Positions 762 through 24,364 of a DNA stretch of 34,909 bases are shown one piece after another. The translations under genes and the position numbers were made by a program. The first letter of the stretch is position 1. Each line of letters starts with the position of its first letter. Source of the DNA: an uncultured Ferrovum sp. (GTDB taxonomy: Bacteria; Pseudomonadota; Gammaproteobacteria; Burkholderiales; Ferrovaceae); NCBI GenBank assembly GCA_903863375.1, contig CAIPBT010000151.1, forward strand, positions 1 to 34,909. The letters run 5' to 3'. The notes under the pieces are model-generated. The model made no database searches. It saw only the letters and a program-made list of their open reading frames with translations, and was not told where the DNA came from.

Positions 762-956
762 CTAGGGTTGGTCGACGTGCAGGAAGGCATCGGAGGCCGC
801 TACCAACGCCGCCGCCTGACGGGCCAGTTCCGGGTCGCGAACTTTCATCAGCAAAGACAGGCCGGCATGAAGCCGGCCCGTGCCGAACAGCGCATCCGCC
901 ACCACGCCTGCAGGCGCTGTGGCGGCGGATGGCAGATCCCGCCCTGAATCAGGCAC
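762..956 (-). CDS. Doubtful small ORF overlapping the acnB stop
   Basis: This is a 64-codon frame starting with GTG at 956, whose start overlaps the acnB stop codon at 949-951. It ends 14 bases before the MOSC start. The predicted product has an alanine-rich amphipathic stretch ([18 protein letters not shown]) and third codon positions rich in G or C, as in a real gene of this genome. I recognise no family. Against it being a gene, a perfect 7-bp hairpin with a partly T-rich tail lies within it (851-878), which could instead be the acnB terminator. Its acnB-coupled start could allow translation without its own ribosome binding site. Treat it as hypothetical. Confidence 0.3.
851..878 (-). terminator. 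Possible intrinsic terminator after acnB
   Basis: On the minus strand a perfect stem GGCCGGC / GCCGGCC (872-878 with 860-866) encloses the five-base loop TTCAT. It is followed by TGTCTTTGC, a weak T-rich tail. It lies about 70 bases past the acnB stop, at a normal distance for a terminator. The short, interrupted T-run and the overlap with a 64-codon frame keep confidence moderate. Confidence 0.45.
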
Positions 957-3540
957 CCATCACCACGGTATCGGCCTGATCCTGGTATTCCGGGATCTGG
1001 TTGAAGTTCATGTAGCGGTAGACCTTGCTGCCATCGGCGTTGATCACACCCATGTCGGCGTGATACTCGGCCACAGTCGGAATGCGACCCAGGCGGGCTG
1101 CGATCGCTGCCAGTTCCGCCGAAGCCAGATAGACGTTCGATCCCTTGCCGAGACGGTTGGGGAAGTTGCGCGTCGAGGTCGACACCACCGTGGCACCTTC
1201 CTTGACCTGGGCCTGGTTGCCCATGCACAGCGAGCAGCCGGGCATCTCCATGCGGGCCCCGGCGGTGCCGAGGGTGCTGTAGTGACCCTCCTTGGTCAGT
1301 TCGTCCTTGTCCATCTTGGTGGGCGGCGCGACCCACAGTCGGGTGGGAATGTCGCGCTTGCCTTCGAGCAGCTTCGAGGCGGCGCGGAAGTGGCCGATGT
1401 TGGTCATGCAGCTGCCGATGAACACTTCGTCAATGGCCGCCCCCTGTACTTCGGACAGCACCCGCGCATCATCCGGATCGTTCGGGCAGCACAGAATCGG
1501 CTCGGTGATCTCGGCCAGGTCGATCTCGATGATCTCCGCGTATTCGGCATCCTTGTCGGCTTCAAGCAGCTGGGGATTGGCAATCCAGGCCTCCATCGCC
1601 TGGATACGGCGCTCCAGGCTGCGGCGGTCTTCGTAGCCGTTGGCAATCATCCACTTCAGCATCGTGATGTTGCTGGTCAGATACTCGATCACCGGTTCCT
1701 TGTTCAGGCGCACGGTACAACCCGCCGCCGAACGCTCGGCCGAGGCATCGGACAGCTCGAAGGCCTGTTCCACCTTCAGGTCGGGCAAGCCTTCGATTTC
1801 TAGGATACGGCCGGAGAAGGCGTTGATCTTGCCCTGCTTGGCCACGGTCAGCAGTCCCTGCTTGATGGCGTACAGGGGAATGGCATGCACCAGATCGCGC
1901 AGGGTGATGCCAGGCTGCATCTTGCCCTTGAACCGCACCAGCACTGATTCGGGCATGTCCAGCGGCATCACCCCGGTGGCGGCAGCGAAGGCGACCAGAC
2001 CAGAACCGGCCGGGAAGCTGATGCCGATCGGGAAGCGGGTATGGCTGTCGCCGCCGGTGCCCACGGTATCCGGCAGCAGCATGCGGTTCAGCCACGAGTG
2101 GATCACGCCATCGCCCGGGCGCAGGGCAACGCCGCCGCGGTTGCTGATGAAGGCCGGCAGCTCGCGATGGGTTTTCACATCCACCGGCTTGGGGTAGGCG
2201 GCGGTGTGGCAGAACGACTGCATCACGAGGTCGGCAGAAAAACCCAGGCAGGCCAGGTCTTTCAACTCATCACGGGTCATCGGCCCGGTGGTGTCCTGGC
2301 TGCCCACCGAGGTCATGCGCGGCTCGCAATAGGTGCCCGGGCGTACGCCCTGGCCTTCCGGCAGGCCACAGGCGCGCCCGACCATCTTTTGCGCCACGCT
2401 GAAACCCTTGCCGCTATCCTTCGGTGCCACCGGCAGGCGGAAGGTGGTGCTGGCCGACATGCCGAGGAATTCGCGCGAGCGCGCGGTCAGGCTGCGGCCA
2501 ATGATCAGGTTGATCCGTCCGCCGGCACGCACTTCATCCAGCAGCACGTCGCTGCGCAGGCTGAACTGGGCCACCACCGTGCCGTTCTTCTCGATCTTGC
2601 CAGCATACGGGTAGATGTCGATCACATCGCCCATGTCAAGTTTCGAGACGTCCACCTCGATCGGCAGCGCGCCACTGTCTTCCTGGGTGTTGAAGAAGAT
2701 CGGGGCAATCTTGCCGCCCAGGCTGACACCACCGAAGCGCTTGTTCGGCACATAGGGGATGTCTTCGCCGGTGTGCCAGATCACCGAGTTGGTGGCCGAC
2801 TTGCGCGAGGAGCCGGTGCCGACCACGTCGCCGACGTAGGCCACCAGGTGGCCCTTGGCCTTCAGCGACTCGATCAGCTTGAGCGGCCCGATCTTGCCGG
2901 GTTCGTCCGGCAAGATGCCGTCGCGGGCATTCTTCAGCATGGCAATCGCGTGCAGCGGGATGTCCGGGCGGCTCCAGGCGTCCGGCGCCGGCGACAGATC
3001 GTCGGTGTTGGTCTCGCCAGTCACCTTGAACACCGTGACGGTGATTTTCTGCGCCACTTCCGGGCGCGAGGTGAACCACTCGGCGGCAGCCCAGGAATTG
3101 ATCACGGCGCGGGCATGGCTGTTGCCAGCCTTGGCCAGTTCGGCGACATCGTGGAAGAAGTCGAACATCAGCAGGGTCTTCTTCAGGCCCTCGGCCGCCA
3201 CGGCTGCGACCGCCTCGTCCTTCAGCAGGTCGATCAGCGGCTTGACGTTGTAGCCACCCACCATGGTGCCGAGCAGTTCGGTGGCCTTGGCGCGCGAAAT
3301 CAGTGCCACCGGGAAGTCGCCGTGCGCCACGGCCGACAGGAAGCTGGCCTTGACCTTGGCCGCGTCATCCACGCCCGGGGGTACGCGGTGCGTCAGCAAG
3401 TCCAGCAAAAAGGCCTCTTCCCCGGCGGGTGGTGCCTTGATCAGTTCCACCAGGTCGGCCGTCTGTTCGGCGGTCAGCGGGAGGGGCGGGATGCCGTAGG
3501 TGGCGCGTTCGGCAACGTGTTGGCGGTAGGCTTGCAACAT
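949..3540 (-). CDS. acnB: Aconitate hydratase B / 2-methylisocitrate dehydratase AcnB
   Basis: The 863-residue product is close in length to E. coli AcnB (865). It interconverts citrate and isocitrate in the TCA cycle and hydrates 2-methyl-cis-aconitate to 2-methylisocitrate in the methylcitrate cycle; it is cytosolic. The [4Fe-4S] ligands are visible as C711 (in [12 protein letters not shown]) and C769/C772 (in [11 protein letters not shown]), almost the same numbering as in E. coli AcnB. The N-terminal HEAT-like domain starts [15 protein letters not shown] at 3540 is chosen because it begins the family N-terminus and has AGGTGA seven bases upstream; a longer in-frame reading to 3723 would run into prpF. 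It is the last recognisable metabolic gene of the prpB-prpC-acnD-prpF series, 94 bases after prpF, with no convincing promoter of its own in the gap. Confidence 0.98.
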
Positions 3541-3634
3541 GGGGATCACCTGCTGGAAAAAACGACGGATGGTTGGAAAAGATTGTGTCTCAACAGGAGG
3601 CACATGACTATGTGTGCGTGAAGCTTCGGCACCC

Positions 3635-4909
3635 TCAGGACCGCCTTGCGGCAGCAGACGGGCGGGGCTCCGGGGCGTCCGGGGTGGCGGCGCGCGAGCC
3701 AGTGTCGCCGCGGATGGCGGCACTGTCCGGCACCCGCACCCAGCCCTCCATCAGCACCCGGGCACTGCGACTCATGATGGCCTTGGTCACCGTCCATTGG
3801 CCGTCCCGCAGGATGGCCTGCGCCCCGACGCGCAGGGTGCCGGACGGGTGGCCGAAGCGGACCGCCTCGCGGGCCGCGCCACCGGCAGCCAGATTGACCA
3901 GGGTGCCAGGGATTGCCGCCGCCGTGCCGATCGCCACGGCGGCGGTTCCCATCATGGCGTGGTGCAGCTTGCCCATCGACAGGGCGCGCACCAGCAGGTC
4001 GATCTGGCTGGCGGCGACGGTCTTGCCGCTGGACGCGACGTAGTCTGCCGGGGGTGCGACAAAGGCGACCTTCGGCGTGTGCTGGCGGCTGGCGGCTTCC
4101 GCCAGATCGCCGATCAGTCCCATGCGCAAGGCCCCGTGGGCGCGGATGGTCTCGAAGCGGGCAAGGGCGGCCGGGTCGCCATTGATGGCGTCCTGCAGTT
4201 CGGTACCGCGATAGCCCAGGTCGGCCGCATTCAGGAAGATGGTCGGAATGCCGGCGTTGATCAGGGTGGCGGGGAAAGTGCCAAGGCCGGGCACGTCCAG
4301 GCGGTCGACCAGGTTGCCGGTGGGGAACATCGAGCCACCGGCCCCCTCTTCATCGGCTGCCGGGTCCAGGAATTCGAGTTGCACCTCGGCGGCCGTAAAG
4401 GTCACGCCGTCCAGTTCGAAGTCGCCGGTCTCCAGCACGGCACCGTCCTGCATGGGCACGTGCGCGATGATCGTCTTGCCGATGTTGGCCTGCCAGATGC
4501 GGACGGTGGCCTGGCCATCGCGCGGCACCCGGCTGGCGTCGAGCAGGCCCGAGGTGATGGCAAAGGCCCCGACGGCCGCCGACAGGTTGCCGCAGTTGCC
4601 ACTCCAGTCGACGAAAGCCCGGTCGATGGCCACCTGTCCGAACAGGTAGTCGACATCGTGCCCTGGCCGTTGGCTGGTCGACAGGATCACGGTCTTGCTG
4701 GTGCTGGAGGTGGCCCCGCCCATGCCGTCGATCTGCTTGCCGTAGGGGTCGGGACTGCCGATCACGCGCAGCAGCAGGGCATCCCGCGCCGGGCCGGGCA
4801 CCTGTGCCGCCAGCGGCAGGTCTTGCAGCCGGAAAAACACTCCCTTGCTGGTGCCTCCGCGCAGGTAGGTGGCGGGAATGCGCAGTTGCGGACCAAAGGC
4901 GTGGGTCAT
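3635..4909 (-). CDS. prpF: 2-methyl-aconitate cis-trans isomerase PrpF
   Basis: PrpF converts the AcnD product, 2-methyl-trans-aconitate, into the cis isomer that AcnB can hydrate. The 424-residue protein has the expected features: N-terminal [27 protein letters not shown] with K72, and DWSGNCGN with C106, corresponding to the active-site lysine and cysteine discussed for Shewanella PrpF (K73, C107). The usual family end, [12 protein letters not shown], is followed here by about 30 extra residues rich in Arg, Pro and Ala, so the protein is longer than the typical 390-400. The start is nine bases after the acnD stop with only a weak ribosome binding site, which suggests translational coupling. 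A prpF next to acnD is the hallmark of the PrpD-independent methylcitrate pathway. Confidence 0.97.
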
Positions 4910-4918
4910 GATGTCGAC

Positions 4919-7513
4919 TCAGGCAGCCTGGGAGGAAGCCAGGAAATCCTGGGCGAAGCGCTGCAGCACCCCACCCGCTTCATAGATCGAGACTTCTTCG
5001 GCGGTATCGAGGCGGCAGGTGACCGGCACCGCCACCCGTTCCCCATTGTTCCGGTGGATCACCAGCGTGAGCGTGCTGCGCGGTTCGCGCGCGCCCAGCA
5101 CATCGAAGGTTTCGGTGCCGTCGATAGCCAGGGTCAGGCGCGTGGTGCCGGGCAGGAATTCCAGCGGCAGCACCCCCATGCCGATCAGGTTGGTGCGGTG
5201 GATGCGCTCGAAGCCTTCGGCCACGATCGCCTCCACCCCCGCCAGACGCACGCCCTTGGCCGCCCAGTCGCGCGACGAGCCTTGGCCGTAATCGGCCCCC
5301 GCCACCACGATCAGGGGCTGCTTGCGTTCCATGTAGGTCTCGATCGCCTCCCACATGCGTGTCACGCGACCTTCTGGCTCGATCCGGGCGAGCGATCCCG
5401 CCTTGACCACGCCGTTCTCGCGCACCATCTCGTTCTTCAGGGTAGGGTTGGCGAAGGTGGCGCGCTGGGCGGTCAGATGATCGCCGCGGTGGGTGGCGTA
5501 GGAGTTGAAGTCTTCTTCGGGCAGGCCCATGCGGGCCAGGTATTCTCCGGCTGCACTTTCGGGCAGGATCGCGTTCGACGGCGACAGGTGATCGGTGGTG
5601 ATGTTGTCGCCCAGCACCGCTAGCGGCCGCAGGCCGCGCAGGGTACGCTCACCCGCCAGCGCTCCCTCCCAGTAGGGCGGACGGCGGATGTAGGTGCTCT
5701 GCGCGCGCCAGTCGTACAGGGGGCTCACCCGGGTGTCCTGGTCGGTTCGCGCCGCAAACATCGGGATGTAGACCCGCCGGAACTGCTCGGGCTTCACGCT
5801 GCGCGCGACGATGGCGTCGATCTCGGCATCGCTCGGCCACAGATCCTGCAGGCGGACCGGCTGCCCCTGGGCGTTCAGGCCGAGCACGTCCTTTTCAATG
5901 TCGAAGCGGATGGTGCCGGCAATGGCATAGGCCACTACCAGGGGCGGTGAGGCCAGGAAGGCCTGCTGGGCATAGGGATGAATCCGGCCGTCGAAGTTGC
6001 GGTTGCCCGACAGCACGGCGGTGGCGTACAGCTTGCGATCCACGATTTCCTGCTGGATCACCGGGTCGAGGGCACCAGACATGCCATTGCATGAGGTGCA
6101 GGCATAGGCCACCACGCCAAAGCCCAGGGCTTCCAGGTCGGGTAGCAGGCCGGCTTCTTCCAGATACAGGGTCACCGCCTTCGATCCGGGCGCCAGCGAG
6201 GTCTTCACCCAAGGCTTGCGCAGCAGTCCATGGCGGCGGGCGTTGCGCGCCAGCAGGCCGGCGGCGATCATGTTGCGGGGATTGTTGGTGTTGGTGCAGC
6301 TCGTGATGGCCGCGATGATCACGGCCCCATCCGGCATCTGCCCCGGCACGTTTTCCACCACCCCGCTGATGCCGCGGGCGGCGAGCTCGCTGGTCGGCAC
6401 GCGCTTGTGCGGATTCGACGGACCCGCGATGGTGCGCACCACGCTCGACAGGTCGAAGTGCAGCACCCGCGGATACTGCGCCGTGGTCAGGCTGTCGGCC
6501 CACAGGCCGGTGGCGCGCGCATAGGTCTCCACCAGGGCGACCTGGCTGTCTTCGCGCCCGGTCAGTCGCAGGTAGTTCAGCGTCTGCTCGTCGATGTAGA
6601 ACATCGCCGCCGTCGAGCCGAATTCCGGGGCCATGTTGGCGATGGTGGCGCGGTCACCCAGCGTCAGATGGGACGCACCGCTGCCGAAGAATTCCAGGTA
6701 AGCCGACACCACCTTCTGCTGGCGCAGGAACTCGGTGAGGGCGAGCACGATATCGGTGGCGGTGATGCCTTCCTGCGGCCGCCCACTCAGCTCGACGCCG
6801 ATGATGTCCGGCAGGCGCATCCACGAGGCGCGGCCCAGCATCACGCTCTCGGCTTCCAGCCCGCCCACGCCGATCGCGATCACGCCCAGCGCATCGACCA
6901 TCGGCGTGTGGCTGTCGGTGCCCACCAGGGTATCCGGGAACGCCACCCCGTCGCGCACCTGCACCACCGGTGACATGCGTTCCAGGTTGATTTGGTGCAG
7001 GATGCCATTGCCCGGCGGGATCACGTCCACATTGTTGAACGCGTGCTTGGTCCACTGGATGAAGTGGAAGCGGTCTTCATTGCGACGGTCTTCGATGGCC
7101 CGGTTCTTGGCAAAGGCATCGGGATCAAAGCCACCGCATTCGACGGCGAGCGAATGATCGACCACCAGCTGGGTGGGCACCACCGGGTTGACCAGTGCCG
7201 GGTCGCCACCCTGGGCAGCGATGGCGTCGCGCAGGCCGGCCAGGTCGACCAGCGCGGTCTGCCCCAGGATGTCATGACACACCACCCGGGCCGGATACCA
7301 GGGAAAGTCGAGATCCTGCCGGCGCTCGATCAGCTGGCGCAGCGAGGCGTCGAGCGTGGCCGGATCGCAGCGCCGCACCAGGTTTTCGGCCAGCACGCGC
7401 GAGGTGTAGGGCAGGGTGGCATAAGCCCCGGGCTGCAGCGCATCGACAGCAGCGCGGGCGTCATAAAAGTCCAGGGGGGTGCCGGGCAGCGGCTTGCGAT
7501 GCAGCAGGTTCAT
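4919..7513 (-). CDS. acnD: 2-methylcitrate dehydratase (Fe/S-dependent) AcnD
   Basis: AcnD is an aconitase-A-like enzyme that dehydrates 2-methylcitrate to 2-methyl-trans-aconitate and works together with PrpF in place of PrpD. The 864-residue product carries the [4Fe-4S] cysteines C406 (in AITSCTNTNNPRN) and C472/C475 (in ACTSCNGMSGAL). The CNGMSG form is the one I associate with AcnD, whereas AcnA enzymes usually have CIGNSG. Other aconitase blocks are present, such as VGTDSHTPM, PEFGSTAAMF and a C-terminal swivel domain with DYGQGSSRDWAAKG. ATG at 7513 is preferred because GAGGAC lies six bases upstream and the N-terminus fits; an in-frame extension to 7594 reads through an intergenic hairpin region. 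It lies between prpC (96-base gap) and prpF. Confidence 0.97.
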   Translation of the reverse strand: MNLLHRKPLPGTPLDFYDARAAVDALQPGAYATLPYTSRVLAENLVRRCDPATLDASLRQLIERRQDLDFPWYPARVVCHDILGQTALVDLAGLRDAIAAQGGDPALVNPVVPTQLVVDHSLAVECGGFDPDAFAKNRAIEDRRNEDRFHFIQWTKHAFNNVDVIPPGNGILHQINLERMSPVVQVRDGVAFPDTLVGTDSHTPMVDALGVIAIGVGGLEAESVMLGRASWMRLPDIIGVELSGRPQEGITATDIVLALTEFLRQQKVVSAYLEFFGSGASHLTLGDRATIANMAPEFGSTAAMFYIDEQTLNYLRLTGREDSQVALVETYARATGLWADSLTTAQYPRVLHFDLSSVVRTIAGPSNPHKRVPTSELAARGISGVVENVPGQMPDGAVIIAAITSCTNTNNPRNMIAAGLLARNARRHGLLRKPWVKTSLAPGSKAVTLYLEEAGLLPDLEALGFGVVAYACTSCNGMSGALDPVIQQEIVDRKLYATAVLSGNRNFDGRIHPYAQQAFLASPPLVVAYAIAGTIRFDIEKDVLGLNAQGQPVRLQDLWPSDAEIDAIVARSVKPEQFRRVYIPMFAARTDQDTRVSPLYDWRAQSTYIRRPPYWEGALAGERTLRGLRPLAVLGDNITTDHLSPSNAILPESAAGEYLARMGLPEEDFNSYATHRGDHLTAQRATFANPTLKNEMVRENGVVKAGSLARIEPEGRVTRMWEAIETYMERKQPLIVVAGADYGQGSSRDWAAKGVRLAGVEAIVAEGFERIHRTNLIGMGVLPLEFLPGTTRLTLAIDGTETFDVLGAREPRSTLTLVIHRNNGERVAVPVTCRLDTAEEVSIYEAGGVLQRFAQDFLASSQAA

Positions 7514-7550
7514 GCCTGTCCTCTTGGGCGCACCGGCACAGACCTGACGG

Positions 7551-7609
7551 CCCGTTGCCGGGATGGGGGGGCCGGGCACGCAGTCCCGGCGCATTCATGC
7601 GATGCCGGG
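7551..7609 (-). other. Structured prpC-acnD intergenic RNA
   Basis: Right after the prpC stop the sequence folds back: CCCGGC (7585-7590) pairs with GCCGGG (7604-7609), and inside it GCAT (7591-7594) pairs with ATGC (7597-7600), with a three-base bulge on one side. A smaller hairpin, CCCG-loop-CGGG at 7551-7562, has a GCAA loop on the minus strand. There is no T-run, so full termination is unlikely; partial attenuation or 3'-end protection of prpBC mRNA is possible. Confidence 0.45.
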
Positions 7610-8773
7610 TCAGCGCCGGTCCTGGATCGGCACGAAGACCTGGTCTTCCGGGCCGACATAGTTGGCGCTCGGGCGGATGATCTTGCCGTCAATGCGTTGC
7701 TCGATGACATGGGCCGACCAGCCACTGGTGCGCGACACCACGAACAGCGGCGTGAACATGGCGGTCGGTACCCCCATCATGTGGTAGCTGACCGCGCTGA
7801 ACCAGTCGAGGTTGGGGAACATCTTCTTCACCTCCCACATCACCGACTCCAGCCGTTCGGCAATGTCGTACATGCGGGTGTCGCCCTGTTCCACGCTCAG
7901 CGTGCGCGCCACTTCCTTGATCACCTGGTTGCGCGGGTCGCTCACGGTGTAGACCGGGTGGCCGAAGCCGATCACCACTTCCTTGCGCTCCACGCGCGCG
8001 CGGATATCCGCCTCGGCTTCGTCAGGACTGTCGTAGCGCTTCTGGATCTCGAATGCCACCTCGTTGGCACCACCGTGCTTCGGACCGCGCAGTGCGCCGA
8101 TACCGCCAGTGATGGCGGAGAACATGTCCGAGCCGGTGCCGGCTACCACGCGCGACGTGAAGGTCGAGGCATTGAACTCGTGTTCGGCGTACAGGATCAG
8201 CGAGGTGTGCATGGCACGCACCCAGCTGTCGCGCGGCTTTTCGCCATGCAGCAGGTGCAGGAAGTGGCCGCCGATCGAGTCATCGTCCGTTTCCACCTCG
8301 ATGCGCCGGCCGTTGTGACTGAAGTGATACCAGTACAGCAGCATCGAGCCCAGGCTCGCCATCAGCTTGTCGGCGATGTCGCGCGCGCCGGGGTGATTGT
8401 GGTCGTCCTTTTCAGGCGACAGGCAGCCCAGCACCGACACGCCGGTGCGCATCACGTCCATCGGATGGGCCGAAGGCGGCAGCTGCTCCAGGGCGGTCTT
8501 CAGGCCAGCCGGCAGCCCGCGCAGGGCGCGCAGCTTGTTCTTGTATGCCGCCAGCTGCGCGTGGGTGGGCAGCTTGCCGTGCACCAGCAGATGGGCAATC
8601 TCCTCGAATTCGCTGGTGGTGGCCAGATCGAGGATGTCATAGCCGCGATAGGCCAGATCATTGCCGGTGCGTCCCACCGTACACAGCGCGGTGTTGCCCG
8701 CCGCCGTGCCCGACAGGGCAACCGATTTCTTGGGTTTGAAGGGAACGGCGGTGACGGTGGATTCGGTGCTCAT
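7610..8773 (-). CDS. prpC: 2-methylcitrate synthase PrpC
   Basis: PrpC condenses propionyl-CoA with oxaloacetate to 2-methylcitrate, the entry step of the methylcitrate cycle in the cytosol. At 387 residues it has the short citrate-synthase form typical of PrpC, compared with 431 for the gltA product in this window. The catalytic triad can be read as H233 (GPKHGGANE), H272 (GFGHPVYT) and D323 (NLDWFSA). The N-terminus [19 protein letters not shown] is characteristic of PrpC. The start ATG at 8773 overlaps the prpB stop by four bases (ATGA) and has AAGGAGG upstream, so the two genes are translationally coupled. Confidence 0.98.
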
Positions 8774-9663
8774 TCAGCCTCCTTGCTGCCGGCGAACAGG
8801 GCATCGAGCTTCTGCTCGAAGCTGTGGTAATCGAGGAAGTCGTACAGCTCGGCGCGCGTCTGCATGATCGGTACCGCGGCCTTCTGGGTGCCGTCGCGCC
8901 GGATGGTTTCATAAACCTGTTTTGCGGCGGCATTCATGGCGCGGTAAGCCCCGCAGCAGTAAAGGGCGATGCCCACACCGGCATCGCGCAATTCGTCGAC
9001 GTGATACAGGGGCGTCGAGCCAAACTCGGTCAGGTTGGCCAGGATCGGAACCCCGACGGCGCGGGCGAACTGGCGGTACATAGGCAATTCGGTCATCGCT
9101 TCGGGAAAGATCATGTCCGCCCCGGCTTCGACGCATGCGCAGGCGCGGTCGATGGCGGACTGCAGGCCCTCTACGGCGAGGGCGTCGGTACGCGCCATGA
9201 TCACGAACTGGCTGTCCACCCGCGCGTCGACCGCAGCCTTCACGCGATCGACCATTTCCTGTTGCGACACGATGGCCTTGCCCGGCCGGTGCCCACAGCG
9301 TTTGGCCAGCACCTGATCCTCGATGTGCAGGCCAGCAGCGCCGGCCTTGGTCAGCGAACGCACGGTGCGGGCAATGTTGAAGGCGCCGCCGAAGCCCGTA
9401 TCGGCATCGACCAGCAGGGGCAGGGCGCTGGCATCCGTGATGCGGCGGACGTCAATCAGCACATCTTCCAGGCCGCTGATGCCAAGGTCTGGCACTCCGA
9501 GGGAGTTGGCTGCCACGCCGCCGCCGGACAGATAGATCGCCTGAAAGCCGATGCGTTCGGCCATGCGCGCGGTGTACGCGTTGATCGTTCCGACGGTCTG
9601 CAGCGGGCGTTCCTGCTGCACGGCAGCGCGCAGTCGCGCGCCGGGGCTGGTGTCTTTTTGCAC
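8770..9663 (-). CDS. prpB: 2-methylisocitrate lyase PrpB
   Basis: PrpB cleaves 2-methylisocitrate to pyruvate and succinate, the last step of the cycle. The 297-residue protein belongs to the isocitrate lyase/PEP mutase family and keeps the signature KRCGHRPGK with K121 and C123, at the same numbers as in Salmonella PrpB, and the metal-binding acidic residues D86 and D88 in VDADTGFGG. Translation starts at GTG (9661-9663), with GAGGA six bases upstream; no ATG fits better. It is the first gene of the minus-strand prp cluster, about 23 bases downstream of the predicted transcription start. Confidence 0.98.
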
Positions 9664-9692
9664 GCTTGTCCTCGCTCCTTTCTGACGGCTCG

Positions 9693-9721
9693 ATGTTAGT
9701 TTTCAGGAGCTTCCGTGTCAA
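9693..9721 (-). promoter_or_regulatory. Sigma70-type promoter of the prp operon
   Basis: On the minus strand a consensus -35 box TTGACA (9716-9721) is separated by exactly 17 bases from a -10 box TAACAT (9693-9698). Transcription would start near 9686, leaving a leader of about 22 bases before the prpB GTG. The near-palindrome at 9728-9749 lies just upstream of the -35 box. Confidence 0.75.
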
Positions 9722-9727
9722 TAGCAC

Positions 9728-9749
9728 TTATAACTTATATAAGATATAA
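9728..9749. promoter_or_regulatory. Candidate operator for the GntR-type regulator (22-bp near-palindrome)
   Basis: A 22-bp AT-only-rich inverted repeat with 20 of 22 positions symmetric; its core is the perfect 10-bp palindrome CTTATATAAG (9734-9743). It is the most AT-rich spot of the window and lies between the divergently transcribed prpB and regulator genes. HutC-subfamily GntR proteins are known to bind AT-rich palindromes of this general shape. Its centre is about 52 bases from both predicted transcription starts. Confidence 0.65.
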
Positions 9750-9775
9750 CACGCTGGATTTTACGCTGGCGCTGG

Positions 9776-9784
9776 TGGTATACT
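9776..9784 (+). promoter_or_regulatory. Extended -10 promoter of the GntR-type regulator gene
   Basis: TGG followed by TATACT (9779-9784) makes an extended -10 element; no good -35 box is placed 17 bases upstream. Transcription would start near 9791, only about seven bases before the ATG at 9798. No ribosome binding site is visible, which fits a very short or leaderless message. Confidence 0.5.
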
Positions 9785-9797
9785 GCACCGCACGATC

Positions 9798-10529
9798 ATG
9801 AAGACACTCGCTTCTCCAAGTTTCCGGCCGCTCTATGATCAGATCAAGATCCTGATCACCCAGAGCCTGATCGCCGGTGAGTGGCGCCCGGGGGATGCCA
9901 TCCCGAGCGAGATAGAACTCGCCAGCCGTTTTCACGTCAGCCAGGGCACGGTGCGCAAGGCGATCGACGCCTTGGCCGCCGAGAACATCCTGGTGCGGCG
10001 ACAGGGCAAGGGCACCTTTGTCGCATCACATGCCCAGGAGCGCCCAACCACCCGCTTCCTGCGGGTGTCGCCAGATGCCGGCGCCATCGAATTCCCCGGC
10101 AGCGAGCTGCTCAGCGTCTCCCGCGAGCGCGCACCCGAGCGCACACAGCGCCTGCTCGACCTGCGCGCCGGTGCAACCATTTTCGTGATCCGGCGTCTGC
10201 TCAAGTTCAGTGGCGTGGCGTCCATCCTCGATGAAATCCATCTGCCGTGCGCCCTGTTCAAAGGGCTGGAAGAAAACAGCCTGCGCAGTCACCGCGGTTC
10301 CTTCTACGGGTTTCTGGAGGGACATTTCGGCATCACCATGATCCGCGCGGAAGAACGCATCAAGGCGGTGGCGGCAACCGCCGACCAGGCAGCGCTGCTG
10401 AAGGTGGCGGCAGGTTCGCCTTTGCTGTGCGTGGACCGGGTTGCTTATACCTATGGCGACCGGCCGGTGGAGTGGCGGCGCGGGCTGTGCCTGACTGACA
10501 ACTGTTCTTACATCAATGAAGTGACCTGA
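9798..10529 (+). CDS. GntR-family transcriptional regulator (HutC/UTRA type), probable prp regulator
   Basis: The 243-residue protein has an N-terminal GntR winged helix (about residues 8-75), with the family pattern PLYDQIKILI, GEWRPGDAIPSE, SQGTVRKAIDAL and RRQGKGTFVA, and a C-terminal UTRA effector-binding domain (about 90-238). It is divergent from prpB and next to a palindromic site, so it most likely controls the methylcitrate genes and senses a pathway intermediate; this is inference from position. Many proteobacteria use a sigma54-dependent PrpR for this job, and none is present here. The ATG at 9798 matches the family N-terminus but lacks a ribosome binding site. sdhC follows 77 bases downstream on the same strand, so co-transcription with sdh cannot be excluded. 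Confidence 0.93.
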   Translation: MKTLASPSFRPLYDQIKILITQSLIAGEWRPGDAIPSEIELASRFHVSQGTVRKAIDALAAENILVRRQGKGTFVASHAQERPTTRFLRVSPDAGAIEFPGSELLSVSRERAPERTQRLLDLRAGATIFVIRRLLKFSGVASILDEIHLPCALFKGLEENSLRSHRGSFYGFLEGHFGITMIRAEERIKAVAATADQAALLKVAAGSPLLCVDRVAYTYGDRPVEWRRGLCLTDNCSYINEVT

Positions 10530-10606: not shown

Positions 10607-11002
10607 ATGGCAAACCCTAGCATCAGCAGCAAGAAGCGCCCGAAGCACCTGGAGTTATGGAAAATCCGCCTGCCGGTGCCGGGCATAGTCTCGATCCTGC
10701 ATCGGGTCAGTGGTGCCGTGATGTTCCTGGTACTGATTCCGGTGCTGCTGGCAGCGCTGGATGGTTCGCTGGCTTCCCAGGAGAGCTTCGAAGACCTGCG
10801 CTTCCAGCTGTCGGGGCCGCTGGTCAAGCTGGTGGTGCTCGGGCTCTCGTGGGCGTTTGCCCACCACGCACTGGCCGGCGTCCGTTACCTGCTGCTCGAC
10901 CTCCATATCGGCATCGACCTGGCCACCACGCGCCTGTGGAGCAAGGCCGTGCTGGTGGTCAGTGGCCTCCTTACCCTTCTCGTAGCGGTGGCACTATGGT
11001 AA
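10607..11002 (+). CDS. sdhC: Succinate dehydrogenase cytochrome b556 subunit SdhC
   Basis: SdhC is one of two membrane anchors of respiratory complex II and contributes to the ubiquinone site and haem b. The 131-residue protein has three hydrophobic segments (about 27-50, 70-93 and 110-131). The quinone-site motif LHRVSG (31-36) and the haem region AHHALAGVRYLLLD, with H86/H87, are both present. ATG at 10607 is used because the family N-terminus starts there and GAGAGAG lies just upstream; an upstream GTG at 10568 would add an unlikely 13 residues. The stop overlaps the sdhD start. It is the first gene of the sdhCDAB-sdhE-gltA-sucAB-lpdA series. Confidence 0.97.
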   Translation: MANPSISSKKRPKHLELWKIRLPVPGIVSILHRVSGAVMFLVLIPVLLAALDGSLASQESFEDLRFQLSGPLVKLVVLGLSWAFAHHALAGVRYLLLDLHIGIDLATTRLWSKAVLVVSGLLTLLVAVALW

Positions 11003-22462: not shown

Positions 22463-24364
22463 ATGAGTACAGCGGCCGTCCGCGCCTTCCACCAACGTTC
22501 GATTGAAGATCGTGAGGCGTTCTGGCTGGAACAGGCCAGTCTGATCGACTGGCAGACCCCGCCCACGCGGGCGTTGGACGACAGTCGCCTGCCCTTCGCC
22601 CGCTGGTACCCCGAAGGCCGCACCAACCTGTGCCACAACGCGGTGGACCGGCATCTGGCCACCCGGGGTGACCAGGCCGCCCTGGCCTATGTCTCCACCG
22701 AAACCGGGCGGGAGTTCACCTGGACCTACCGCGAATTGCATGCTGAGGTGCAGCGCTGCGCTGGCGTGCTGCAGGATCTGGGGGTGCGCACCGGCGACCG
22801 GGTGATCCTGTACCTGCCGATGATTGCCGAAGCCCTGGTGGCGATGCTGGCGTGTGCCCGCATCGGCGCGATCCATTCGGTGGTGTTCGGGGGGTTTGCG
22901 TCGGCCAGCCTGGCGACGCGGATCGATGATGCCCGGCCGACCGTGCTCGTTACCGCCGACGCCGGCATGCGCGGTGGTCGCATGATTCCCTACAAGCCGC
23001 TGGTGGATGCCGCACTGGCTGCGGCAGCGCATCCCCCGGCCAAGGTACTGGTGATCGATCGCGGACTGGATGCGGACAGCAGCCGGGTGGCAGGCCGGGA
23101 CGTCGATTATGCCGAAGCGATGGCCAGCGTCGGACAGCGCGAGGTGCCGGTGGTCTGGCTGCCCGGCGATGCCCCGTCCTACATCCTCTACACGTCGGGC
23201 ACCACCGGCCGGCCCAAAGGGGTACAGCGCGATACGGCAGGGTACGCGGTCGCCCTGGCAGCCTCGATGAAGTACATCTATGGCGGGCAGCCGGGCGAGG
23301 CTATGTTCACCACCTCCGACATCGGCTGGGTGGTCGGGCATTCCTACATCGTCTACGCGCCGCTGATCCATGGCATGACCACGGTGGTCTACGAAGGACT
23401 GCCGATCCGCCCCGATGCCGGCATCCTGTGGCGCCTGGTGGAGCGCTTCAAGGTGACTGTGATGTTCAGTTCGCCGACCGCCATCCGGGTGCTCAAGAAG
23501 CAGGATCCGGCCTGGTTGTCACGCTACGACACGTCGTCGCTGCGCGGCCTGTATCTGGCCGGCGAGCCACTCGATGAGCCGACCGCGCGCTGGATTTCCG
23601 ACAGCCTGCAGGTGCCGGTCACGGACAATTACTGGCAGACCGAAACCGGCTGGCCGATCCTCTCGGCCATGCCCGGGGTGGCCGACACCCCACGCAAGTT
23701 CGGCAGTCCCAGTTTTCCGGTGTATGGCTTCGACGTGCAACTGCTCGATCCCGATGGTCATCCGGTGCCGGTGGGCCAGAAGGGCGTGGTGGCCATCCGG
23801 CCGCCGCTGCCACCCGGCTGCCTGTCCACCGTCTGGGGCGATGATGCGCGCTTCGTGTCGACGTATTTCTCGTCGTTTTCCGGCCAGCAGGTCTATTCGT
23901 CCTTCGATTGGGGCGTGGCCGATGAAGACGGGTATTACTTCATCCTCGGGCGCACCGACGATGTGATCAATACCGCCGGACACCGGCTCGGCACCCGGGA
24001 AATCGAGGAGGCCGTCAGCGGCCATCCGGCCATTGCGGAGGTTGCTGTGGTCGGTGTGCAGGATGCGGTGAAGGGCCAGGTCCCCGTGGCCTTTGCCGTC
24101 CTGCGCGATGCCGCTGGTGCGGCCACGCCGGCAGCGGCTGAGGCGCTGGAGCGCGAAGTATTCCTGGCCGTGGATCAGGCACTGGGGGCCATCGGCCGGC
24201 CCGCCCGGGTGCATTTCGTCACCGTGCTGCCAAAGACCCGATCGGGCAAGCTGCTGCGGCGAAGCATCCAGGCGCTGGCCGAAGGGCGCGACCCCGGGGA
24301 CATGACCACGCTGGAAGATCCCGCTGCCCTGGAGCAGATCCGTCTTGCCCTGTTGGACCGATGA
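22463..24364 (+). CDS. prpE: Propionate-CoA ligase PrpE
   Basis: PrpE activates propionate to propionyl-CoA via propionyl-AMP, supplying the methylcitrate cycle. The 633-residue acyl-CoA synthetase has the ATP loop YTSGTTGRPKG (243-253) followed by VQRDTAGYAVAL, which distinguishes PrpE from acetyl-CoA synthetases, then NYWQTETGWPI and the C-terminal hinge FILGRTDDVINTAGHRLGT. The catalytic lysine is K596 in TRSGKLLRRS, the residue that is acetylated or propionylated in related enzymes. GAGAGAGGAG precedes the ATG. It is separated from the other prp genes by the whole sdh-suc block and has no visible copy of the prp operator upstream. Confidence 0.96.
   Translation: MSTAAVRAFHQRSIEDREAFWLEQASLIDWQTPPTRALDDSRLPFARWYPEGRTNLCHNAVDRHLATRGDQAALAYVSTETGREFTWTYRELHAEVQRCAGVLQDLGVRTGDRVILYLPMIAEALVAMLACARIGAIHSVVFGGFASASLATRIDDARPTVLVTADAGMRGGRMIPYKPLVDAALAAAAHPPAKVLVIDRGLDADSSRVAGRDVDYAEAMASVGQREVPVVWLPGDAPSYILYTSGTTGRPKGVQRDTAGYAVALAASMKYIYGGQPGEAMFTTSDIGWVVGHSYIVYAPLIHGMTTVVYEGLPIRPDAGILWRLVERFKVTVMFSSPTAIRVLKKQDPAWLSRYDTSSLRGLYLAGEPLDEPTARWISDSLQVPVTDNYWQTETGWPILSAMPGVADTPRKFGSPSFPVYGFDVQLLDPDGHPVPVGQKGVVAIRPPLPPGCLSTVWGDDARFVSTYFSSFSGQQVYSSFDWGVADEDGYYFILGRTDDVINTAGHRLGTREIEEAVSGHPAIAEVAVVGVQDAVKGQVPVAFAVLRDAAGAATPAAAEALEREVFLAVDQALGAIGRPARVHFVTVLPKTRSGKLLRRSIQALAEGRDPGDMTTLEDPAALEQIRLALLDR

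Follow-up and report, generated by a model that had tools for sequence, protein, structure and literature searches.

The near-palindrome between prpB and the divergently oriented gene of a GntR-family regulator is very probably the shared predicted operator of that regulator, SdhR, a HutC/UTRA-type protein encoded alongside it. The intergenic region (9664-9797) is best understood as a shared divergon under autoregulation. Taken as a whole, sign included, a model in which SdhR represses both divergent promoters, is released by a TCA or propionate effector and governs a small regulon is on balance probable. Positions refer to the window, the whole stretch of 34,909 nucleotides analysed, from an uncultured Ferrovum sp.; all promoters named here and below are hexamer matches. 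The features are:

949..3723, minus strand: acnB open reading frame (profile match)
3635..4909, minus strand: prpF (profile match)
4919..7594, minus strand: acnD (profile match)
7610..8773, minus strand: prpC, 2-methylcitrate synthase (profile match)
8770..9663, minus strand: prpB, methylisocitrate lyase (NF008455 and TIGR02317 above cut-off)
9693..9698, minus strand: prp promoter -10 TAACAT, spacer 17
9716..9721, minus strand: prp promoter -35 TTGACA, separated from the core by 12 bp; matched exactly in all 21 distinct family loci that have the core
9726..9751, no strand: predicted SdhR operator with four half-sites; 21 of 26 positions agree, by eye, with the SdhR motif in the matching passage of PMC4494728
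9728..9749, no strand: 22-bp near-palindrome of the sequence-only reading (sequence symmetry)
9734-9743, no strand: inner core CTTATATAAG, within the predicted operator
9755..9760, plus strand: regulator promoter, weak -35 TGGATT, 11 bp from the core; spacer 18 to the -10
9776..9784, plus strand: regulator promoter, extended -10 TGG-TATACT (sequence match)
9798..10529, plus strand: sdhR, GntR-family regulator with UTRA domain, 243 aa (domain matches)
10607..11002, plus strand: sdhC, which opens the sdh-gltA-odh cluster downstream of sdhR (TIGR02970 above cut-off)
22463-24364, strand not given: prpE, located in the window

On the prp side, acnB is possibly the last gene of the operon. Its open reading frame overlaps prpF, and the true start probably lies near 3540, as the profile match begins at residue 62.

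The regulator and its predicted operator

The regulator combines a GntR helix-turn-helix (PF00392, 74.2 bits) with a UTRA domain (PF07702, 111.1 bits), the domain pair of the HutC subfamily. The putative name SdhR rests on motif and context. The core CTTATATAAG is present with flanking half-sites, the right outer one imperfect; the orthologues in 101 other rows are 52-84% identical over nearly their full length and share the context; and sdh genes, the context assumed from the name, adjoin the regulator in the order sdhC, sdhA, sdhB, gltA, odhA, odhB, lpd. The protein falls below the cut-off of 24 of 24 NCBIfam models among the matches listed and receives no equivalog name. Identity as the HutC histidine-utilisation repressor was rejected (TIGR02018, 109.8 bits vs. 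a cut-off of 220), as was a FadR-type identity like that of PrpR of Pseudomonas aeruginosa (PA0797), which we take to be PmiR, since the FCD effector domain is absent and UTRA is present. The PrpR/PmiR operator ATTGTCGACAAT was not found by eye in 9664-9797, where CTTATATAAG is present instead. The effector-domain structure 3cnv, which presumably originates from Bordetella, matches residues 86-241 (E 1e-37), and the solved structures of DasR and YvoA, likewise of the HutC-UTRA type, match over the helix-turn-helix and effector domain (E 4e-23 and 2e-21). DasR and YvoA are amino-sugar regulators with other motifs. The recognition-helix residues SQGTVRKA are 98-100% kept in the 102 orthologue rows.

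This regulator type and its motif are already in print as predictions. The matching passage of PMC4494728, citing Suvorova et al. (2012, J Bacteriol), gives the predicted motif of SdhR, a HutC-subfamily GntR regulator, as TCTTATGTCTTATATAAGACATAAGA, a 'palindrome with additional symmetry'. Compared by motif alone with that passage, the system described here has the same regulator subfamily and the same core with extra symmetric half-sites, and differs in its divergent prpB and its weaker outer half-sites. Among the 20 matches listed, of 22 papers with the core string, PMC4494728 alone shows the 26-mer in its matching passage and alone is titled on bacterial transcription-factor motifs; no SdhR binding or mutant study was noticed among the open-licence papers in the matches listed.

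The sequence-only reading had picked out a 22-bp near-palindrome, which is borne out by TTATAACTTATATAAGATATAA at 9728-9749: 10 of its 11 pairs are complementary and one is mismatched, and arms of 12 nt are 92% complementary. A 26-bp span (9726-9751) delimits the site better, taking in the outer half-sites of the series ACTTAT/ACTTAT/ATAAGA/ATAACA, spaced ~7 bp. An equally good palindrome arose in 1 of 5000 shuffles of 9664-9797; across the whole window, three 22-bp windows are equally palindromic, against a shuffle mean of 0.85 and a maximum of 4 (100 shuffles), so rarity alone was dropped as evidence. Conservation, rather than rarity, is strong evidence for the predicted site.

An orthologous regulator was found in 22 of 32 family genomes (search, E up to 1e-20); in 21 of these, the 400 bp preceding its gene contain the core with no more than one mismatch. 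By the same measure the core is present at 75 of 78 wider loci; these are the best 80 of a longer list, less L030 and L031, which duplicate L007 and L018, are excluded from the family counts of 22 and 21, and are included in the 102-row sets used for divergent-gene clustering and helix comparison. The family exception, G014, has a weaker relative, GTCTTCTATATGATAA, at the core's place, and a good core is missing upstream of the regulator in L049, L069 and L082. The 22-mer is unchanged in L002-L006. In eight genomes of one genus neither regulator nor prpB was found, and one of them (G006) has the core elsewhere in its genome; in G015, no regulator was found, prpB is present and the core lies near a contig end. 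The predicted divergon arrangement is widely conserved.

The form of the site is also kept. Seventy-three unique sites were aligned from the 79 of 102 loci that lie within two mismatches of a 14-mer, a limit outside which the window's own form falls; over 26 bp, the window site shows the same four half-sites as this alignment. Inner TCTTATATAAGA is nearly invariant, C at -5 and G at +5 are invariant, and the dyad is kept across families. On the divergent side an outer TCTTAT-like half-site stands out clearly, together with an additional TA at -15/-14; its counterpart on the other side is weaker.

A paralogue of the regulator, 37-39% identical, occurs in five of the five genus genomes searched, with two copies in G004 (L024-L029, comprising G000:C36:10408-11103 and its relatives). 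The six paralogue rows form their own clade with an altered recognition helix, SVGTLRKA, and the upstream motif TCATATAAATGA is exact in four of the six, with TCATCTAAATGA and TCAACTAAATGA in the other two.

Promoter geometry and further predicted sites

The claim of a consensus-like prp promoter stands: TTGACA-17-TAACAT on the minus strand (9721-9693) has 10 of 12 matches (one found vs. 0.2 expected) and is the only sigma-70 scan match in 9500-9950. The extended -10 promoter proposed for the regulator was likewise found. With +1 set 7 nt past each -10, the predicted starts fall at ~9686 (prp side) and ~9791 (regulator side), and the palindrome centre, 9738.5, lies 52.5 bp from each, in line with the ~52 bases first noted. 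The placement upstream of both core promoters was also read correctly, and is conserved in the family.

On the divergent side, all 21 distinct family loci that have the core show TGTCAA (the reversed -35) at a distance of 11 or 12 bp from it. Among the 75 wider loci with the core (best of a longer list), 64 have a TTGACA-like -35 (no more than one mismatch, and none in 43) 10-14 bp away from the core, and 11 lack it in this interval; because the -35 keeps this distance in most loci, the geometry looks selected. Of 85 loci, 80 continue with TAnnnT at a spacing of 17 (56 loci) or 18 (24 loci); no other spacing between 5 and 39 accounts for more than 6. These spacing counts are strong evidence that the predicted divergent promoter is real and selected. 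On the regulator side the gap within the family is 11 in 17 of 21 loci, 10 in three and 13 in one; in the 56 of 75 wider loci (best of a longer list) with a regulator-side promoter scoring at least 10, it is 11-12 in five, 15 in 11, 21-25 in 35, and otherwise 19, 29 (two), 37 or 77. Mirror symmetry of the two promoters is therefore largely a family feature, and what holds more generally is the position relative to the divergent promoter: the symmetric control region of the sequence-only reading is real in the window and does not extend beyond the family as a rule.

In 51 of these 56 loci (L032-L109, scored promoters), the extended -10 (often TGnTGAAAT) is followed after 6-8 nt by an in-frame ATG, which predicts a regulator mRNA with little or no leader at the wider loci. 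For the window itself (9779-9798), the predicted regulator leader is ~7 nt, without a clear Shine-Dalgarno sequence.

Within the window, no second match exists within three mismatches of a 16-bp pattern (14 specified bases), so the earlier statement that prpE, acnB, sdhC and etfB lack a similar site holds there; a genome scan with the 22-mer, run as had been proposed, also gave no second match within three mismatches. Elsewhere in the genome, however, shorter and weaker sites, which recur in relatives, lie at icd/rraA-aceA and actP. Twenty-one of 32 family genomes contain an exact copy of the icd/rraA-aceA site, GTCTTATATATGATAT. The eight genomes of the genus without the regulator lack it even at two mismatches; all eight retain icd, and their fetched DNA is nowhere under three mismatches to the site. 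Eleven of 12 fetched loci carry icd and/or rraA-aceA, ten of them icd (L187 without an rraA match); the eleventh, L188, lies at the end of a contig. Neither was found at the remaining locus, L190, which is a two-mismatch hit. G015 and G023 (70% and 89% complete) have the site and no regulator match, and G017, G018 and G021 (57-76% complete) have the regulator and lack the exact site. On the aceA side, the site lies between the -35 and -10 of a plausible promoter (by eye; the hexamers are weak in several genomes). The paralogue is unlikely to own this site, because the site occurs in genera in which no paralogue was found and the paralogues have their own motif.

Upstream of yjcH-actP, a site with one, one and two mismatches of 12 occurs in G000, G001 and G003 (three of five genus genomes), its core beginning 12, 18 and 12 nt past the -10 TACAGT; in G002 and G004, the actP upstream region holds nothing under four mismatches. 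Genome-wide motif counts do not exceed a reversed-pattern control (10-mer, one mismatch, 7 vs. 7; 12-mer, two mismatches, 5/7, 5/6, 37/105, 8/10 and 45/95 in G000-G004), so single extra hits are claimed only where they recur at orthologous places, and the actP site rests on its recurrence in three related genomes. Single extra cores in G002, G005, G006, G028 and G029, viewed as sequence only, were set aside. So was a pair of SdhR-like sites, 35 bp from each other, that separates ppsA from ppsR in G001 only (L139:1499-1545) and was not found in G000 or G003; a ppsR-like match in the source genome (L169, G000:C214:19452-20288) is reported with one internal TAG. G002 and G004, which lack the SdhR-like site before actP, carry the paralogue motif TCATCTAAATGA upstream of that gene; this possibly marks an exchange of regulators.

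Twenty-nine order-wide loci, one per genome, comprise 15 with a regulator match (L204 at 36% identity only), six at acnB, two at icd/rraA-aceA (both family members), one at aceB and five (L203, L216, L226, L229, L231) without a match to any query gene. Of the six acnB loci (L205, L206, L207, L208, L214 and L220), the first three could be assigned a geometry by eye: the site lies over the -35 position in L206 and 11-12 bp upstream of the weak -35s TTGCTT and TTGCGC in L205 and L207.

Repression, activation or both

From the site, its conservation, its geometry and its co-occurrence with the regulator, we infer binding, repression, an effector and the extents of the operons. An SdhR dimer would read the inner half-site pair, the outer pair probably serving a second dimer or extra contacts. 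Bound SdhR would cover ~-40 to -65 of both divergent promoters, adjoining the -35 and occupying the UP-element position, and would thereby lower prpBC-acnD-prpF-acnB and sdhR, and probably also the sdh genes behind sdhR. A TCA or propionate metabolite would bind the UTRA domain and release SdhR; because partner genes are exchanged under an unchanged recognition helix, the probable effector is a metabolite that the TCA and methylcitrate cycles share. The small regulon would add icd/rraA-aceA and, in some relatives, actP, acnB or aceB.

Repression is our first choice over activation because the prp -35 is consensus and because the site lies after or over the core promoter at actP, aceA and acnB of L206. 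By analogy, the named repressors DasR and YvoA would support the same sign. Against it, the -52 position is conserved more strictly than repression by steric hindrance would require. Activation or dual action is a less likely alternative, which draws on the conservation of this position and on its recurrence, by eye, at the two acnB promoters with weak -35s.

An SdhR that contacts RNA polymerase from -52 at prp, mdh and acnB, and acts as a repressor only at promoters whose core is covered by its site, is possible but rather unlikely. The -52 position is about one helical turn from -41.5, and the contrast between the narrow divergent gap (10-14 bp in 64 of 75 wider loci, best of a longer list) and the loose regulator-side gap (11-37, once 77, in 56 loci) favours such contacts, as does the repeated geometry, by eye, at L205 and L207. 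However, an exact consensus -35 is unusual at activator-dependent promoters, and here all 21 family loci with the core and, at a gap of 10-14, 43 of the 75 wider ones (best of a longer list) have TTGACA unaltered; the gap also drifts from 11 to 14, ~100 degrees of helix, and the actP, rraA-aceA and L206 acnB sites fit repression. The hint of activation drawn from placement in the sequence-only reading thus keeps the conserved and recurring -52 position and loses ground to the consensus promoter and to these three sites. A fixed cassette with an exchanged gene (mdh, prpB, acnB or citE-like), in which position-dependent SdhR would activate the divergent TCA/methylcitrate promoter from -52 and repress glyoxylate-shunt and acetate-uptake promoters whose core the site covers, is in our estimation unlikely.

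Exchanged partner genes and the likely signal

The gene divergent to the regulator varies, which makes the regulator look TCA-wide rather than specific to 2-methylcitrate. An mdh cluster takes this place in 55 of the 102 rows (NCBIfam check of two members; the rows include the best 80 of a longer list), prpB in 19 of the 22 distinct family loci, a citE-like gene in eight rows (three checked, under the citE cut-off), acnA in L021, and acnB, directly behind the same promoter, in L005 and L006 (L005 checked). A regulator-prpB divergon also occurs in another family of the order (L225). In G002 and G004, prpB was not found, the regulator is retained and acnB stands behind the same promoter and operator, an arrangement that would arise by loss of the prp genes, given that acnB ends the prp cluster in the window. 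The prpB count omits L060, L062, L068, L082, L087 and L103, probably wrong-frame open reading frames that clustered with prpB. The divergent frames of L075, L077, L081, L083, L090, L091 and L094 are short and probably spurious; L015 has a short, probably spurious frame as well, its prpB, truncated by the contig end, having been recovered by tblastn; L041 has an unrelated divergent frame and L045 none.

A repressor dedicated to the methylcitrate cycle, with 2-methylcitrate or 2-methylisocitrate as its sole signal and comparable to PrpR/PmiR of Pseudomonas (FadR-type), is accordingly improbable. The prevalence of divergent prpB within the family and the joint absence of prpB and regulator from eight genomes of one genus agree with it, but regulator and site persist facing acnB in the prpB-less G002 and G004, the regulator faces mdh in more than half of the rows just given, the effector domain is UTRA rather than FCD, and the motif differs. 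The signal first suggested, 2-methylcitrate or 2-methylisocitrate, is weakened by the mdh loci in particular. In the matching passage of PMC9765439, P. aeruginosa PrpR (PA0797) is likewise a GntR-family regulator, there a repressor of the methylcitrate operon, and unlike the present protein it has a FadR-type FCD domain and the motif ATTGTCGACAAT. According to the matching passage of PMC4423775, deletion of the GntR regulator NMB1563 of Neisseria meningitidis raises the prpB-prpC operon, for which its authors propose a small-RNA route; this is a GntR-type regulator tied to prp genes, likened here by function. That the palindrome is an AT-rich UP element or unrelated symmetry and no operator of the neighbouring regulator is highly improbable: its AT-rich position just upstream of two -35s and the roughly one such palindrome expected per window would allow it, but the C/G pair at -5/+5 is invariant in the 73 unique sites, the dyad is kept across families, and the site stays with the regulator in G002 and G004 without prpB.

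With SdhR as its predicted owner, an apparently propionate-specific control region becomes one outlet of a TCA-wide betaproteobacterial regulator. The kept -52 geometry and the exchanged targets pose the question of whether a HutC-type regulator placed upstream of consensus promoters represses or activates them. The icd/aceA and actP sites would extend the reach of SdhR to the branch between the TCA cycle and the glyoxylate shunt.
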